DNA of 38,273 nucleotides from positions 1 to 38,273 of the forward strand of contig JAFTQX010000006.1 of the NCBI GenBank assembly GCA_017462545.1, written 5' to 3'. The translations under genes and the position numbers were made by a program. Positions 8,609 to 16,200 of this stretch are shown here, piece after piece (the first letter of the stretch is position 1; each line of letters opens with the position of its first letter). The notes below the pieces were generated by a model. The model was not told where the DNA came from, did no database searches, and was given only the letters and a program-made list of their open reading frames with translations. Origin of the DNA: Clostridia bacterium (GTDB lineage: Bacteria > Bacillota > Clostridia > Oscillospirales > CAG-272).

Positions 8609-11600
8609 TTAGCGAGCAGCGTTTGCAGTCTTGCAGAGAACCAGCATCGCATCAAGCAGCTCAATCAGCTTGGTGTTGAAGGGATCCTGCTCGTACTTAC
8701 GAGCCACATAAGACTCTACGCTGTAGGTCAGCACGCCGGACTGAACATCGCCGCGCTGATCCATTACCTTGAAGTAGAAGGGCTTGCTGAATTCAGCCGT
8801 TCTAATCTGAACGGTTACCTGATATTCGCCCTCTACGCCGGTTTCTTTCGCAGCCAGCTTCTGCGGGGTGAGGAAGGCTGCGTTATCATCCATCAGTACC
8901 GTCAGCTTTCTGGCGGGCAGATTGGAGGAGAAGGTGATGACCAGGTCGATCGTCTCACCCAGCACGAGGTTTGCACCGGTGATGGTAACCTCGCCACCTT
9001 CCAGGGTGGTCAGGCTGTAAACATTCTCCGGAACGATAACGGGCATAACAGGCAGCTCTTCAGGCATCGTCAGACCGTTGTCTACGCCACGGTACTGATC
9101 CAGCGCGATGGCGTACTTCAGCAGCGCGGTAGCAACACGGTTGAGCGAAGAGCTGGTAGAGGTTGCGTTGATGGCATTCTGTGCGTAGTCAGCAACGCTG
9201 ATCTCCACAACATTGCCATCAGCGATCGTACCATCGGCATATTCAACCCAAGTACGAGCATAGAAGGTCTTGCTCAGCTCCCATGCCGAGATACCCGTGA
9301 TGTTGTAGATCTCGGATACATCGGACATCATGGCATCCTCTGCAGTGTTGTCCTCAACGGAAACAGCGGAGAGAGCCTTGTAGCCGTCAGCCATTGCCTC
9401 AGCATCGGCAAGCGAGGTCCAGATCTTCAGACCGGTGGCAACATAGTCGGTGCGGGTGGTGTTAAGATGCGTGTAAACATTCAGCGTGAAGGTCTCCTTG
9501 ACCGTAACGCCGGTAGCCGTGATCTTCGGTGCATTCTCAAATGCGGTGTAGGTGATGGCGGGGTTGATCTGGATCATACGGCTGGAGTCATAGCCCTTTT
9601 CAACGCGGAACTCGATGGTGTCGCCCACGTTGACAGTCTCTGTCAGCGGGAACTGACCGGGGTAGAGCTCGTTGATCACGTTGAGCAGATCGATCTCGGA
9701 AGCCTGTGCCTCGTAGGTAAACCACTCGTCGCCTGCGGGCCAGATCTGCTCGCCGTTCTTAAAGATGGCAAGCTTGAAGCCAAGGGGCATTGCCTTTTCG
9801 GCATCGTTGGTGGTATTCTTGATACCCAACAGGTTCTTCAGCTCGATCGAAATGGTACCGTCCGTCGGGGCGGTGTACTGCAGCTGTGCCCAGAAGGCGC
9901 CGTCAGCACCCATATTGCGGGAAAGAGCAAAGCGGGGGTCTTTCTCGTTGTAAAGACCACCGAAGGTTTGCCAAGCCTCGTCATAATGGCAGAACAAACC
10001 GTCTGAATTCAATGTAGTATAAGGCAGGAACTTTTCGCCAACCTTATCGTAAGCACCAGCCTGCCAACCACCATAATAGCTGACAACCGAGTTCATCTCG
10101 TCATACGACGGGCGGCAGCTCGAGAAGTCAGAGTCGCCTGTCAGTACCGGCTTGAGCTCGATATCGGTGTTGCCCACCGTCAGCTTTTCGCCGGGCTTGT
10201 AGTCAACCTCGCCGTCGTCGTTAATATCCCAACCAAAGAAGGGGTAGCCTGCGGGGTAGGAGGGGAGGGAAATCGTGCCGCCTGCGGTGGTCTGGGTGAT
10301 CACCTTGTTGCCGGTCTTGGGGTGCGTGTAGTAAACGGAGACGATCTCCGAGGAGTCGATCATATCGCTGACATAACCAATCGAGGCACGGAATCCTGTA
10401 CAGAAGTCAGGACTGCTCCAACCGGTGCTCATGTTCTTTGCACGGAAGAGGAAGACAAGCTGATCGCCTGCATTGACATCAATATTCTTCGCCTTTTCGG
10501 TTTTTGCGCCGTTCGTGGTATATTTCATGCCAACACCTTCTTCGGCGGCATTGGCAGTATCACCATAAACAACCTTCTCCGTGCCATCGGCTGCGATCTT
10601 CACAATCGCATAGTAAACGGCGCCGAGATCGGTAGCACTGGGAACATTGAAGGAGGAGTTGATATTGATCGTGCCGTTTTGAGGAACGGTGTAGGAAAAA
10701 CCAACGCCCTGCGTTTTGAAGTCAGCGGCGGAGCCATTGATGTTACAGCGTGCCAGATCGCCATTCCAAACTTCTGTCCCGTTGTTGCGCGGCAGCCACA
10801 GAATACCCTGGTTCCATTCGCCATAGGTGGCGAAGGTGGGATTGTAGTTCAGCTTGGTAACCACACCGTCGTCATACTTTACAACAGCCCAGCTGTCGGT
10901 AAAGTCGCTTGCCAGCGTAAACGGTGCGCTAGTTCCGGAGTAGACGGGCCAGTTCTCGCCGCCCGTTACCAGCTTGGAGGCCTCGGTAGGCTCCTTCTCG
11001 ATCTTGGTGTAGGTCACGGTCATGTCCAACACGTTACCGCGGCACTGCCAAATGCCATCACCGCTCTTGACCAGCAGCTCGATGGTGTCCCCCTTTTCAA
11101 CCTCGATGTTCTTGAGGTTGGAATAGCCCTCAGATGCCTTGGCCTCATCCAGCATGTCAGCCTCGGTAGCGGGGAACCAGTCGTTCTTATCAACATAGTT
11201 GCCGTTCTTCGGCCATACCATGTTGCCGTTTACAAGAACGGCAAAGCGAGCGCTATAGTTGCCGTTCCCGAGAAGACCGGGGGCTTTGGTGCTCAACTTG
11301 GTAATATCAATGGTAATGGTGCCGGTGTATTCCGCCGTGTAGCGGATACCGCCGTTCCATTCCCAGTTTGCGGAAACGGCGCCGGTATTGCCCCATTCAC
11401 CATGCCAGTTGCCACGGAATACGGGTGTGGTGGGACCCCACAGAGCGGTACGATCGGCCGATCCAATGAAAATCTCCGTATTGGAAAGATCTGCATTGTT
11501 CCATGTCGAATCACCACCGCGAACGGTGTTGCAAACAACCGTCTGCGCCCAGCTGTCCTTATAGTGGCCAACCCAATCCCAGTTGCCCTTGAAGGTAAGC

Positions 11601-11758
11601 TTGGAGCCGCCGACGGTAGTAAAGGTCGGCATGTTCTCAGAGGCTTTTGTGGTGTGTGTAGTCGGTGTTTCTGCCGCCGTGGCAATGATCGCGCCAACGG
11701 GAACCATCGGCAGCACCATGCACAGCACCAGAAGCAGAGATAACAGCTTCTTTTTCAT
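8609..11758 (-). CDS. Very large secreted modular surface protein (paralogue A)
   Basis: The 1049-residue product begins with a Sec signal (KKKLLSLLLVLCMVLPMVPV, likely cleaved after ATAA near residue 29). Modules in order: beta-rich domain A (about 50-255, FKGNWDWVGHY and GNTGAV blocks), domain B (about 265-470), an InlB-type repeat with an EF-hand-like loop DINDDGEVD (about 475-545), domain C (about 555-740, YYGGWQAGAYD and GEQIWPAGDEW blocks), and a C-terminal region. That region has two copies of a helical motif, VADYAQNAINA...LLKYAIAL and YSVESYVARKYE...AMLVLC. Such ends occur in secreted proteins of gut clostridia. No LPxTG, SLH or cell-wall-binding repeat is seen, so the mode of anchoring is unclear. 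Its promoter, leader and signal peptide match those of the divergent gene at 12370. Function unknown; adhesion or glycan binding is only a guess. Confidence 0.85.
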   Translation of the reverse strand: MKKKLLSLLLVLCMVLPMVPVGAIIATAAETPTTHTTKASENMPTFTTVGGSKLTFKGNWDWVGHYKDSWAQTVVCNTVRGGDSTWNNADLSNTEIFIGSADRTALWGPTTPVFRGNWHGEWGNTGAVSANWEWNGGIRYTAEYTGTITIDITKLSTKAPGLLGNGNYSARFAVLVNGNMVWPKNGNYVDKNDWFPATEADMLDEAKASEGYSNLKNIEVEKGDTIELLVKSGDGIWQCRGNVLDMTVTYTKIEKEPTEASKLVTGGENWPVYSGTSAPFTLASDFTDSWAVVKYDDGVVTKLNYNPTFATYGEWNQGILWLPRNNGTEVWNGDLARCNINGSAADFKTQGVGFSYTVPQNGTININSSFNVPSATDLGAVYYAIVKIAADGTEKVVYGDTANAAEEGVGMKYTTNGAKTEKAKNIDVNAGDQLVFLFRAKNMSTGWSSPDFCTGFRASIGYVSDMIDSSEIVSVYYTHPKTGNKVITQTTAGGTISLPSYPAGYPFFGWDINDDGEVDYKPGEKLTVGNTDIELKPVLTGDSDFSSCRPSYDEMNSVVSYYGGWQAGAYDKVGEKFLPYTTLNSDGLFCHYDEAWQTFGGLYNEKDPRFALSRNMGADGAFWAQLQYTAPTDGTISIELKNLLGIKNTTNDAEKAMPLGFKLAIFKNGEQIWPAGDEWFTYEAQASEIDLLNVINELYPGQFPLTETVNVGDTIEFRVEKGYDSSRMIQINPAITYTAFENAPKITATGVTVKETFTLNVYTHLNTTRTDYVATGLKIWTSLADAEAMADGYKALSAVSVEDNTAEDAMMSDVSEIYNITGISAWELSKTFYARTWVEYADGTIADGNVVEISVADYAQNAINATSTSSSLNRVATALLKYAIALDQYRGVDNGLTMPEELPVMPVIVPENVYSLTTLEGGEVTITGANLVLGETIDLVITFSSNLPARKLTVLMDDNAAFLTPQKLAAKETGVEGEYQVTVQIRTAEFSKPFYFKVMDQRGDVQSGVLTYSVESYVARKYEQDPFNTKLIELLDAMLVLCKTANAAR

Positions 11759-11763
11759 AGTGA

Positions 11764-11856
11764 ATCCTTTCTTGGGGTTTTGCCCCCATATAGAAGATTG
11801 GTTACTTCTATAAATAATCTGCCTATATTTTACACCATTTCCATGCCTTCTGTCAA
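11764..11856 (-). promoter_or_regulatory. Promoter and two-hairpin leader of surface protein A
   Basis: On the minus strand TTGACA (11856-11851), an 18-base spacer and TAAAAT (11832-11827) form the promoter. The roughly 60-base leader holds hairpin 1 (TATAGAAG 11812-11805 with CTTCTATA 11796-11789, 8 bp) and hairpin 2 (GGGG with CCCC, 11787-11774, A-rich loop), then the AAAGGAT ribosome site. The same order, folds and flanking bases recur before the paralogue at 12370, with a compensating A-T to G-C change in hairpin 1. Confidence 0.7.
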
Positions 11857-12262
11857 CACCTATTTTGACAAAATTTTTCTATATTTTTTGTACACATTGT
11901 ATAATTGCTTGACAATTTTTGCCTGGCAAACCAAATTTTTTCGGAAATGTCCGTTTTTTTCTCAATTGTCAACCCAATTTACGAGAACGGGTGACAATGA
12001 TTTTGCAACAAATTTTGCAGCTGCGAACGAATGGCAGCACCGCCACACGCCCCTCTCCGTCACGCTACGCGTGCCACCTCTCCCTGCGGAGAAGGCTGTT
12101 TGTCGCCGGCCGTTCCGCTGCGCTCCACTACCCGGCGGGGAGGCTTATTTTGCGGGGCAATGGGCGAAAGAAAACGGCAAAAATCCCGTTTGTGGCAGAT
12201 TTGCTCTTTTTTCTATGCATTCTGTACAAAAATTTTATATAAATATTGTGAAGAATTTCGTG
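11857..12262. other. Long intergenic spacer between divergent surface-protein genes
   Basis: No coding sequence was recognised. The flanks are very AT-rich. TGTCAA (11851-11856) and TTGACA (11865-11870) form an inverted repeat across the -35 of the leftward promoter and might be an operator. The centre (about 12040-12175) is a GC-rich island described separately as a probable extragenic repeat. Confidence 0.6.
12040..12175. repeat. Probable GC-rich extragenic repeat element (REP/MITE-like)
   Basis: A sharply GC-rich block sits inside AT-rich spacer DNA. It holds nested short palindromes, such as CACGC-TAC-GCGTG (12061-12073), CTCC/GGAG pairs near 12080-12092, and CGCCGG (12104-12109) with CCGGCG (12132-12137). 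The wording CCTCTCCGTCACGC...GCGTGCCACCTCTCCC resembles dispersed intergenic repeats I recall from gut Firmicutes. Only one copy is in this window, so repetition is not shown here. Confidence 0.4.
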
Positions 12263-12369
12263 TTGACAGATGACGTAAAAAGTAGTAAAATAAGGGTAGA
12301 TTATTTTATGGAAGTAAAAGCATGCTTTTTCTTCCGTAAAAGGGGCAAAGACCCCGGAAAGGATACACT
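12263..12369 (+). promoter_or_regulatory. Promoter and two-hairpin leader of surface protein B
   Basis: TTGACA (12263-12268), 17 bases, TAAAAT (12286-12291). The leader has hairpin 1 (TATGGAAG 12307-12314 with CTTCCGTA 12331-12338, its loop containing the palindrome AAAAGCATGCTTTT), hairpin 2 (GGGG 12342-12345 with CCCC 12352-12355, loop CAAAGA), then GGAAAGGAT before the ATG at 12370. Promoter, hairpins and ribosome site match those of the divergent paralogue base for base in many places. Confidence 0.7.
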
Positions 12370-13236
12370 ATGAAAAAAAGACTACTTTCTTTGCTTCTGG
12401 TGCTGTGCATGGTATTGCCGATGGTTCCCGTTGGCGCGATCATTGCGGCAGCAGCAGACGCTCCTGCCGTGACGCTATATGATGCGGACGGCGGCGTATT
12501 CGCCACGTTGAGCGGTCAGCGCGGTGATATGGTAAAGCTGCCTGCCTTTACCGGCACGCCCGATGGCAAGACCTTTGTCGGTTGGGATATGACCGGTGAT
12601 GGCAAGGCTGACCACAATGACGGCGCTACCGTGATCATCCCCAGCCGCGCGCTGGAGCTGGTTCCCGTGTTTGAGGAAAAGGTTGTGATTGAGGAGCAGC
12701 CCTTTGTTGCCGGTAAGGTTCCCTTTGCCGGTAATGAGCCTGTTGTTTCCGGCGGCACGGTTACCTGGAGAGCCGGCTGGCAGGTCGGTTTCTACAATGG
12801 CAACACCTTTACCCCGTATAAGGCGCAGAGTGGCGGCATCAATCTCCACAACGGTGATGCGTGGGGTGGCCAGGGCGGCATGTACAATGCCGGCAGCAGC
12901 TATAAGATCGCTATGACCAAGGCGCCGAACTACAGCACCATTCTTTACACCATGCCCTTTACCGGTACGGTTGAGCTTGGCTACGATAAGCTGGTCTCTC
13001 GCCGCGAAACCAATCCGAGTGATGTGGCCGCTACTGTTGCTTTGGATGTCGCTATTTACGTGAATAACGTAAAGGTCTGGCCTACAGATGCGGAGTGGTA
13101 TCATTATGAGGGCACGACCGTTTATCCCGCAGGCCAAAATGAGCATAATGAGGATGCGTTGGCATATATGATGGAGAAGGGCATGCTGATGCTGATGGTG
13201 TGGTTACTACCATTGCCGTTAACTGTGGCGATGTGA
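12370..13236 (+). CDS. Surface protein B, N-terminal fragment before a frameshift
   Basis: This reading frame gives a Sec signal almost identical to paralogue A (KKRLLSLLLVLCMVLPMVPV). An InlB-type repeat with the loop DMTGDGKAD follows (about 35-105), then a domain resembling the C domain of paralogue A (AGWQVGFYNG ... VWPTDAEWYHYEG, about 125-255). Homology stops near residue 265; the last residues (MLMLMVWLLPLPL...) are out-of-frame translation. The protein clearly continues in the frame of 13200-16550. The shift is a net +2/-1 between 13152 and about 13200, most simply one lost G after 13182 or two extra bases in the ATATAT run at 13164-13169. No slippery heptamer supports programmed shifting. 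The restored protein would be about 1393 residues. Confidence 0.75.
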   Translation: MKKRLLSLLLVLCMVLPMVPVGAIIAAAADAPAVTLYDADGGVFATLSGQRGDMVKLPAFTGTPDGKTFVGWDMTGDGKADHNDGATVIIPSRALELVPVFEEKVVIEEQPFVAGKVPFAGNEPVVSGGTVTWRAGWQVGFYNGNTFTPYKAQSGGINLHNGDAWGGQGGMYNAGSSYKIAMTKAPNYSTILYTMPFTGTVELGYDKLVSRRETNPSDVAATVALDVAIYVNNVKVWPTDAEWYHYEGTTVYPAGQNEHNEDALAYMMEKGMLMLMVWLLPLPLTVAM

Positions 13237-16200
13237 TCTCCTTCCGTGCTTCGCGCGGCAACAGCACCACCTGGATGCTGTATGAGCAGCCCTTTGTGGA
13301 TGTTATCAGCAACGTAGGGCCTGAAAAGCCCGTAACCACGGTTACTTCCACCTTCTCGGATAATTTCCCCTACTATGTAGGCAATCAGACGGAGTTCCCC
13401 TACAACTCGACCGTTCTTTTCAAGGGCAACTGGAGTTGGATCGCTCACTCTGTTAACGATTATTCTATCGCTACGCTGGTAGACACCATTCGTCGTGGTA
13501 ACCATAATCCCGCAGATGATCCTTGGGGTGACCCGTTTGTAGAGCCTGAGGCCGCAACCGGTCTCGGTGCAAGCGGCTATCCTGTCATTCGCGTTGGTGG
13601 ATGGAATGGCTGGTGGGGCAATACCGGTGCATTTGCGGTATATACCGGCTATACCACCGGTTTGCGTTACATTGCGGAATATGATGGTAAGATCAGCATT
13701 GATATTACCAAGCTTGGTGCCGGTACTGCTGCCGACACGCTGTATGCCGTATTTGTAAACGGCCAGATGGTATGGCCGAACGTAGGCGACTATTATACCG
13801 ATAACAGCAAGTGGCACGATCCGGACGTTACGCCGGGTGAGGCTACCACGCTGACCAATGTTTCCTCGGTGGAGGCTACCGGGATTTTTGTGAACGCCGG
13901 CGATGCAGTCGAGCTGCTGATCAAGTCTCCTACAACGACCTCTCGCCACAACGAAGTGGATATGAAGGTGATCTACAATACCATCTACGGTGGCGATACG
14001 CTGCTGGTTTCCATAGAGGATGCCGCAACCCACGTGGAGACGAAGACTGAATATAAGAACGGCGATAAGTTGGATCTCCCCACCTATGACATCGTTCCCG
14101 ATGATTTCCTTGGTTGGGACGCAAACGGTGACGGAGCTGTTGACTATGAGATGGGCGAGACGGTTACCGTTGAAACCAACCTCAAACTGGTTCCTGTATT
14201 TAAAGAGTATGAAAAGTACACCGAGCTGGTATTTAAGGGCACGAACTGGCCTACCAGCCATGATGATACCTCCATTGCCTCTGGCACTCCCGGATCTTTT
14301 GTTCTGGATAGTGACTTTGCTGGTGGCTGGGCTGCTGTTGGTTACAACTACGGCGCGATCACCACGATGCCTTTTGATTCCAAGTGGAATTCCTACGGTA
14401 GCTGGGGTGCCGGTATTCTGTGGCCTGCCAGCATCGATGGTAATTTTGCCCGCACCGATCTGGCCGACGTAGAGAACCAGGGCGTTGGTTATACCTATAC
14501 CGTTCCGTATACCGGCGTGATCAGACTGGAGACCTCCTTTACAACGCCTGTTGCAAAGGCATTTGAAAACGGCGGCTGTGATGCAGTCTACTTCTCCATT
14601 CTCAAGCTCGCTGCAGACGGTACCGCTACCACGGTCGTAGATACCATTGAATACACCGATACTACTCTGAAGACCAATGCGGCAAAGCATGTAGAGGTCA
14701 ACGCCGGTGATACTATTCTGTATCTCTACCGTGTCAAGACCTCCCGCAGTGGCGCAAATAACGGTGTCGGCTTTGTTGCCAACTTTAATGCAGTTGTCTA
14801 CTATGAGAGCAACATTGATCCTGACAATACCGTATTCGTTACTTACAAGCATCCTGCTACCGGCCGCGATGTCATGCTGGATGCGGTCAAGGGGGAGAGC
14901 TTCACGCTGCCCGAGTTCCCCGCCGGTTATGTATTCTACGGTTGGGATCTGAACAACGATGGCGTGGTAGATGGCAAGCCCGGCTCTACCATCGAGGTAG
15001 GCGATACGAGTGTCGAGATTAAGCCCGTTTTGGCGGCTACCTCTGAGTTCCACAAGAACCTTCCCGTCTATGATGCTCTTGACTCGCATGTCAACTACTA
15101 TGGCGGTTGGCAGGTTGGTGCCTATGACAAGGTAGGCGACAAGTTCTTGCCGCTGATCGACTATATCGAACAGTATAAGCTGTTCTGCAATTATAACAAC
15201 GCATGGATTGATTTTGGCGGTTTCTATGTAGATGGTAACCCGCGTTTCGCTATGTCGCAGGGCTCTCTGACGGATGGCCCCTTCTGGAGCCAGATCCAGT
15301 ACACCACGCCCATGGCCGGTGCCATCTCGATCGATCTGCTGAAGCTGGAAGGCACCGAGAATGGTAACCCCCCCGATCCTCTCGCATTTAAGATCGCTAT
15401 CTACAAAAACGGCGAAAAGATCTGGCCCGCAGGCGATGAATGGGCCTATGTTGAGAAGGATGCCAATGGCGATCTGTTGAGTATTTTGAAGACACAGTAT
15501 CCGGATGCGTTCCCGCTGAGTGTGAATGTGAATGTTGGTGATACGATCGAGTTCCGCGCTGAAAAGCAGAATGCTGCCAGCTATATGCTTGCGCTCAACC
15601 CCGCCATCACCTACACCGCGCTGAACACTGCACCCAAGGTAACGGCTACCTCCGTTTCTGTGAAGGATACCTTCACCCTGAATATCTACACCATTCTCAA
15701 CAGCGTTCGTACCGACTTTGTTGCTACCGGTCTGAAGATTTGGACCTCTCTTGCCGATGCTGAGGCAATGAACGAGAACTATTCGAACCCCGCCGCTACG
15801 ATCTACAACAACAATACGGCAGAGGGCGCGCTTGTGACAGATGTGACGGCCATGTACTCCATCAAGAACATTGCCGCTCAGAACATGAGCAAGACCTTCT
15901 ACATTCGTACTTGGGTAGAGTATGCTGACGGTATCGTTTATGGTGATGTGATCGAGGTTAGCGTTGAGCAGTACGCCAAGAATGCCGCCAACGCTTATAG
16001 AGAGAACAATGCACTCAAGCGTGTTGCTACCGCGTTGCTGCAGTACAACATCGCTGTCAATGAGTACTACGGCATTCAGTCTGACCTTGTTTTGCCGGAG
16101 GATCTGCCTGTTATGCCCGAGGTTACTCCCGAGGATAGCTTCAACATGACCGAGTTCGAGGGCAACCCCATCACCGGTGCTACGTTGAATATTACCGATA

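Follow-up and report, generated by a model that had tools for sequence, protein, structure and literature searches.

What do the two similar leaders that precede a pair of divergent genes in this DNA do, and how far does their use extend beyond this locus? The initial annotation of the window (the whole stretch of DNA that was analysed, 38,273 nucleotides) described a promoter, a GATTATTT block, two hairpins, an AAAGGAT ribosome site and a start codon in both leaders, each of which could be located (Table 1), and proposed that they form a cis-acting RNA element controlling the export-protein genes of the lineage. The analysis indicates a leader that is real and probably functional, ordinary in kind, and found here in two species, each time at a single gene pair.

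The two genes are divergently oriented and their predicted products are large exported proteins with near-identical signal peptides (21 of the first 22 residues match). Aligned over 811 columns, the plus and minus proteins have 48% of their amino acids in common, which marks them as diverged paralogues, not as a recent duplicate. Recent duplication had been named in the annotation as what could explain the similarity away; the hairpins are indeed found only in duplicates, but these are not recent. No Pfam or NCBIfam family was matched by the window proteins at 0.001. Weak matches to List_Bact_rpt (E 0.0073 to 0.085 for the window proteins and 2.9e-5 for the plus protein of G066, the second species considered below), all of which lie under the curated cut-off, would be compatible with an extracellular repeat protein, and the term surface protein is used here as a putative label based on the signal peptide and these matches. 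The reading frame of the plus gene is broken once, at about 13.15-13.24 kb (13150-13240), near CTGATG-like repeats, which may reflect an assembly error, a pseudogene or a real frameshift. Between both promoters, positions 12040-12150 are GC-rich and short parts of them match four other places in the genome, so this stretch may be an interspersed repeat.

Table 1. Positions in the window of the divergent genes and of the elements of their leaders
Feature	Position	Strand	Basis or detail
Minus gene, 1049-aa predicted exported protein, signal peptide MKKKLLSLLLVLCMVLPMVPVGA	8609..11758	-	start ATG 11758
Shine-Dalgarno AAAGGAT, minus gene	11764..11770	-	sequence
Hairpin 2, minus leader, GGGG/CCCC stem and outer U-A	11773..11788	-	fold
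Hairpin 1, minus leader, 8 bp, 8-nt loop	11789..11812	-	fold
GATTATTT block, minus leader	11819-11812	-	
Minus promoter, TTGACA 11856-11851, 18-nt spacer, TAAAAT 11832-11827	11827..11856	-	
Upstream DNA motif TGTACAAAA, 38 nt before -35 box of minus promoter	11886..11894	-	
Upstream DNA motif TGTACAAAA, 40 nt before -35 box of plus promoter	12223..12231	+	
Plus promoter, TTGACA 12263-12268, 17-nt spacer, TAAAAT 12286-12291	12263..12291	+	
GATTATTT block, plus leader	12299-12306	+	
Hairpin 1, plus leader, 11 bp, U.U and 5 bp	12304..12341	+	fold
Hairpin 2, plus leader, GGGGCAAAGACCCC, GGGG/CCCC stem	12342..12355	+	fold
Shine-Dalgarno AAAGGAT, plus gene	12358..12364	+	sequence
Plus gene, paralogue of minus gene, P0002 then P0003	12370..16550	+	start ATG 12370

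Both leaders of the window have promoters close to the consensus and fold better than their shuffles (z of -3.3 and -3.0, with 1 of 200 shuffles as good for each), and the values become -4.2 and -4.0 (0 and 1 of 300 shuffles) when only the stretch from the predicted start to the Shine-Dalgarno site is taken. Protein relatives at 1e-10 are present in 4 of the 69 genomes of the genus, viz. the window's own (G000), G066, G079 and G053; a contig scan with the P0001 protein, which may leave out near records, returned no relative. G066 has the same divergent pair and, by eye, the same neighbours (homoserine dehydrogenase, an O-antigen-ligase-like gene and one further gene), and its leaders contain a promoter and two hairpins as in the window; other members of the protein family in these genomes have leaders of a different kind. 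Without any alignment, all four leaders, i.e. those of two paralogues in each of two species, give the same pair of hairpins (z from -4.0 to -4.4; for none of them did more than 1 of 300 shuffles do as well), and the order of parts is constant: a short 5′ tail leads into the two hairpins in turn, and the Shine-Dalgarno site comes two or three bases after the second. All 12 pairwise alignments, whether of promoter plus leader or of the leader alone, score higher than any of 200 shuffles, from which we conclude that the four leaders are homologous.

Selection on the shape of the RNA had been argued in the annotation from a compensating change in hairpin 1, where an A-T pair of the minus copy is a G-C pair in the plus copy. 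The exchange is real, and it adjoins a U-A/U-G difference, but it is not significant alone. Across the four leaders one pair is A-U in two and G-C in the other two, with both partners changed, and another is U-A in two and U-G in two, with a single partner changed; as the exchange separates the plus type from the minus type in both species it counts, by parsimony, as one event; the covariation score was reached by 73 of 500 shuffles. In an alignment fitted to the structure, and hence biased toward pairing, 94.6% of the cells are paired (53 of 56), a level that 14 of 500 shuffles reach; sliding the partners lowers it to 45.5-61.7%. An alignment with the plus leader off by one column gives 83.3% and no signal. 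A covariance model built without the plus leader (R2) matched that leader independently at 52.8 bits and aligned it properly.

A better argument for selection on shape than the covariation is that the loops and the upper stem have turned over while the pairing persisted. The upper stems of the plus copies are unlike in sequence and comprise 5 bp and 9 bp, the loops of hairpin 1 differ in all four leaders and have no evident common sequence, and those of hairpin 2 have only a purine-rich make-up in common. The spacer between the named arms of hairpin 1, which are 6 to 10 nt long, measures 8, 8, 16 and 25 nt. In hairpin 2, the G066 leaders have an inner fifth pair, C-G in one and A-U in the other, which both leaders of the window lack. 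That the same hairpins recur in a second species despite changed loops, arm spacing and upper stem makes selection on RNA shape likely, as had been inferred from the window.

Gapped identity among the leaders is 69-78% for the leader alone and 70-82% with the promoter, just moderately above shuffled leaders (62-64%), and the stretch upstream of the promoter gives 58-70% by the same method; judged from these sequences, the case for conservation beyond descent is not strong. Such values would also suit an explanation in which shared descent and gene conversion between the inverted copies have kept the leaders alike and the hairpins are functionless. The leaders sit within a longer inverted similarity, which takes in codons of the signal peptide on one side and sequence upstream of the promoter on the other, and in a tree of the C-terminal parts the within-genome paralogues of the divergent pairs in G000 and G066 cluster (support 100/99 and 89/90), so that gene conversion between the copies is possible and could help keep their leaders alike. 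However, the plus type (ATGG/CCGT) and the minus type (ATAG/CTAT) are both kept in each species, which indicates that conversion has not levelled the leaders, and the fold persists in 4 of 4 leaders through the turnover described above. We regard functionless hairpins as unlikely, while granting the idea some weight. A comparison in which the leader seemed more conserved than synonymous sites (38-59% at fourfold sites) was dropped, since the identity that shuffled leaders reach by the gapped method means that it is not like for like.

The proposal of an element shared by the export-protein genes of the lineage did not hold up, as strong matches are confined to one gene pair. Relatives were searched with a covariance model, as the annotation had suggested, in this case one built from the four leaders (R1); with stricter filters and among 69 genomes of the genus, many of whose assemblies are incomplete, strong matches were obtained in two, at this gene pair only. 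The four leaders score 76-80 bits and the next match 29 bits. Among the 395 genomes of the family, 11 have a match at E up to 0.01, viz. G000, G066 and nine others at 26-34 bits, where about four would be expected by chance. Eight of these nine were inspected, and seven lie at gene starts that are unrelated to surface proteins (judged by eye to be two of dCMP deaminase, those of dnaN, ssb, proC and aroC, and a further one), which points to chance or convergence. The dCMP deaminase genes of two other genera (L189 and L192) have hairpins and a Shine-Dalgarno site that by eye are similarly arranged.

Within the genus, 15 places are listed below the four leaders, at 19-29 bits. The best of these, in G040 (29 bits), has a GGGGGC-AAAA-GCCCCC hairpin followed by a Shine-Dalgarno site and ATG; the start of its gene looks, by eye, like the one at the G067 place, where there is a hairpin of similar form. 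At L152 (436-505) and L155, from two species of the genus, a similar GGGGG/CCCCC hairpin directly precedes the Shine-Dalgarno site; the genes look corresponding and the hairpin loops differ.

A general leader of export genes was rejected, as 21 other signal-peptide genes have leaders of other kinds and no R1 match at E up to 10. Together with the four focal genes these form a list of 25 surface genes picked by eye for a signal peptide, from which the signal-peptide-like L054:5315-, L058:14087+, L064:8186+, L066:1786+ and window:148+ were omitted. The counts do not show a hairpin before the Shine-Dalgarno site to be a general design (16 of 165 intergenic leaders versus 14.6 in 20 shuffles); hairpins with four G-C pairs in this position number 10 of 165 versus 4.2, two of the ten being the G066 leaders, and the window pair is missing from these hits, probably through the crude gene caller. 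GGGG-N-CCCC stands before AAAGGA in 91 of 196 family genomes and before TCCTTT, the other-strand site, in 74 of 196; G000 has four matches and the backward control two. In G127, near-identical sequences ending GCCCTAAAGGA occur on many contigs, in at least 19 places, as an interspersed repeat. Leaders structured at the 5% level were found in 7 of 11 surface genes and 21 of 66 other genes (Mann-Whitney p 0.011), after 98 of 175 candidates had been dropped for want of a promoter or of length. The 11 include three focal leaders, and leaving these out gives 4 of 8. On the hand-picked list, once the four focal leaders are set aside, 7 of 21 surface genes have a structured leader at that level, which set against the 21 of 66 controls is no clear difference.

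This distribution bears on whether the two hairpins could be a regulatory RNA that binds a protein or a small molecule and switches the expression of the pair. Two stacked stems beside the ribosome site are kept in two species, along with a similar single-stranded GATTATTT-like stretch and GGAAAGGA, which speaks for such an element. Against it, strong matches are limited to a single gene pair, in 2 of 69 genomes, and the loops and upper stem vary in sequence and length where a riboswitch type has conserved loop or junction nucleotides. No terminator-like site was found at window positions 11740-12400, no Rfam model matched at the gathering score (with the threshold relaxed to E 10, nothing but miRNA models appeared, at E 8.8-9.9 and far below cut-off), and there is no sign of ligand sensing in the leaders. 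A switch of this kind seems to us decidedly improbable.

Upstream of the promoter, the pattern TGnACAAAA, which was chosen after inspecting the sequences, is present at 10 of the 25 surface genes (the window pair and sites at L052, L053, L056, L058, L061, L064 and L067) and at 4 of 146 controls; without the four focal leaders it is found at 6 of 21 surface genes (Fisher p 0.0003). Six of the ten sites lie 38-40 nt before the -35 box, two lie 54 nt and two 60 nt before it. When TGn is not demanded, ACAAAA-N27-33-promoter occurs at 36 places in four genomes against 3 for the backward control; 30 of these have loci and gene starts were seen for 28, among which a signal peptide was recognised by eye at 9 of 9 with TGnACAAAA (six of them outside the list of 25) versus 4 of 19 of the rest. 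A genus search with TGCACAAAA plus promoter gave nine places in 6 of 69 genomes: those in G053 and G066 precede surface genes in 5 of 5 cases, and those in genomes without a protein relative are in 4 of 4 cases not at surface genes, one of the four being membrane-protein-like. TGnACAAAA is thus a candidate regulator site, proposed from sequence comparison, which may be common to exported-protein genes with unlike leaders.

A motif shared in this way, together with hairpin-1 arms that form a near-perfect inverted repeat just past the promoter, raises the thought that a dimeric regulator uses hairpin 1 as its operator in the DNA and that the shared control of these genes is transcriptional. The arms are 8-25 nt apart and the half-sites vary symmetrically, instead of being fixed in sequence and spacing, and hairpin 1 is not seen in the leaders of the other motif-bearing genes; an operator here is very unlikely. 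We would give just as little credence to a dedicated cis-regulatory RNA, bound by an RNA-binding protein, which with an upstream TGnACAAAA site as the mark of exported-protein genes would balance the two inverted paralogues, whose coding sequences would be exchanged while their leaders stay distinct. A leader peptide or attenuator is hardly credible, for although an ATG lies inside hairpin 1 of both plus leaders, the minus leaders have none there, the frame from that ATG enters the main gene in G066 but not in the window, and no terminator-like site was found in the window leaders.

The explanation that we favour, with an even chance of being right, is that these are homologous constitutive 5′ leaders of divergent old paralogues, which would stabilise the mRNA and frame the ribosome site. 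Transcription would begin shortly upstream of hairpin 1, and this hairpin, close to the 5′ end, and hairpin 2, right beside the Shine-Dalgarno site, would make up a compact structured leader that may slow the decay of a long mRNA, frame the ribosome site and aid ribosome loading, and so yield abundant exported protein, with selection maintaining the stems and not the sequence of the loops or upper stem. AAAGGA follows hairpin 2 by 2-3 nt in all four leaders and is predicted to be unpaired at 0.55-0.80. That this is only slightly above shuffled leaders (98, 32, 12 and 44 of 200 shuffles are as open) weighs against the explanation, as do the start codons of the window mRNAs, which are mostly paired in the model (unpaired 0.37 and 0.15; the G066 values are 0.96 and 0.90), and the frequency of structured leaders on other genes of the lineage. 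Counted from a predicted start 5 nt after the -10 box, hairpin 1 begins after 8-10 unpaired nt in 4 of 4 leaders; a modelled tail of this size appears longer than a strict 5′-terminal stabiliser should have, and counts against that form of the explanation.

A protective role is suggested by published systems with stabilising leaders. Stem-loops and ribosome sites contribute to mRNA stability according to passages of a review (PMC7509114), sections of another paper describe S-layer mRNAs as unusually stable (PMC8056022), and the untranslated leader of slpA is presented, in an extract on that gene, as structured and thought to protect the mRNA (PMC6482533). Among the matches listed from the open-access literature no paper deals with the present leader, which is not proof of absence.

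Taken more widely, the locus illustrates what trust a covariation hint from raw sequence deserves, for the structure is real and has probably been under selection, but it is restricted to a single gene pair. Two ideas that are testable in uncultured gut Clostridia also follow, viz. structured leaders on the genes of large exported proteins, and TGnACAAAA, in most cases some 40 nt upstream of the -35 box, as a candidate site for a surface-protein regulon.

Three known systems invite comparison with a protective leader of this kind. The 5′ UTR of Escherichia coli ompA, a strict 5′-terminal stabiliser with a short unpaired 5′ tail, also places a 5′ stem-loop on the mRNA of an abundant envelope protein, although other ribonucleases act there and the unpaired tail of the present leaders is probably longer. 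The Bacillus subtilis aprE leader reportedly stabilises its mRNA by a 5′ stem-loop plus ribosome binding; like the genes described here, aprE is a Firmicute exported-protein gene, and its stem-loop near the 5′ end with a ribosome site close by resembles the predicted layout of the present leaders, which have two stems. In Lactobacillus acidophilus slpA one large stem-loop takes the place of the two small tandem stems found here, but it too is a surface-protein gene with a structured leader.
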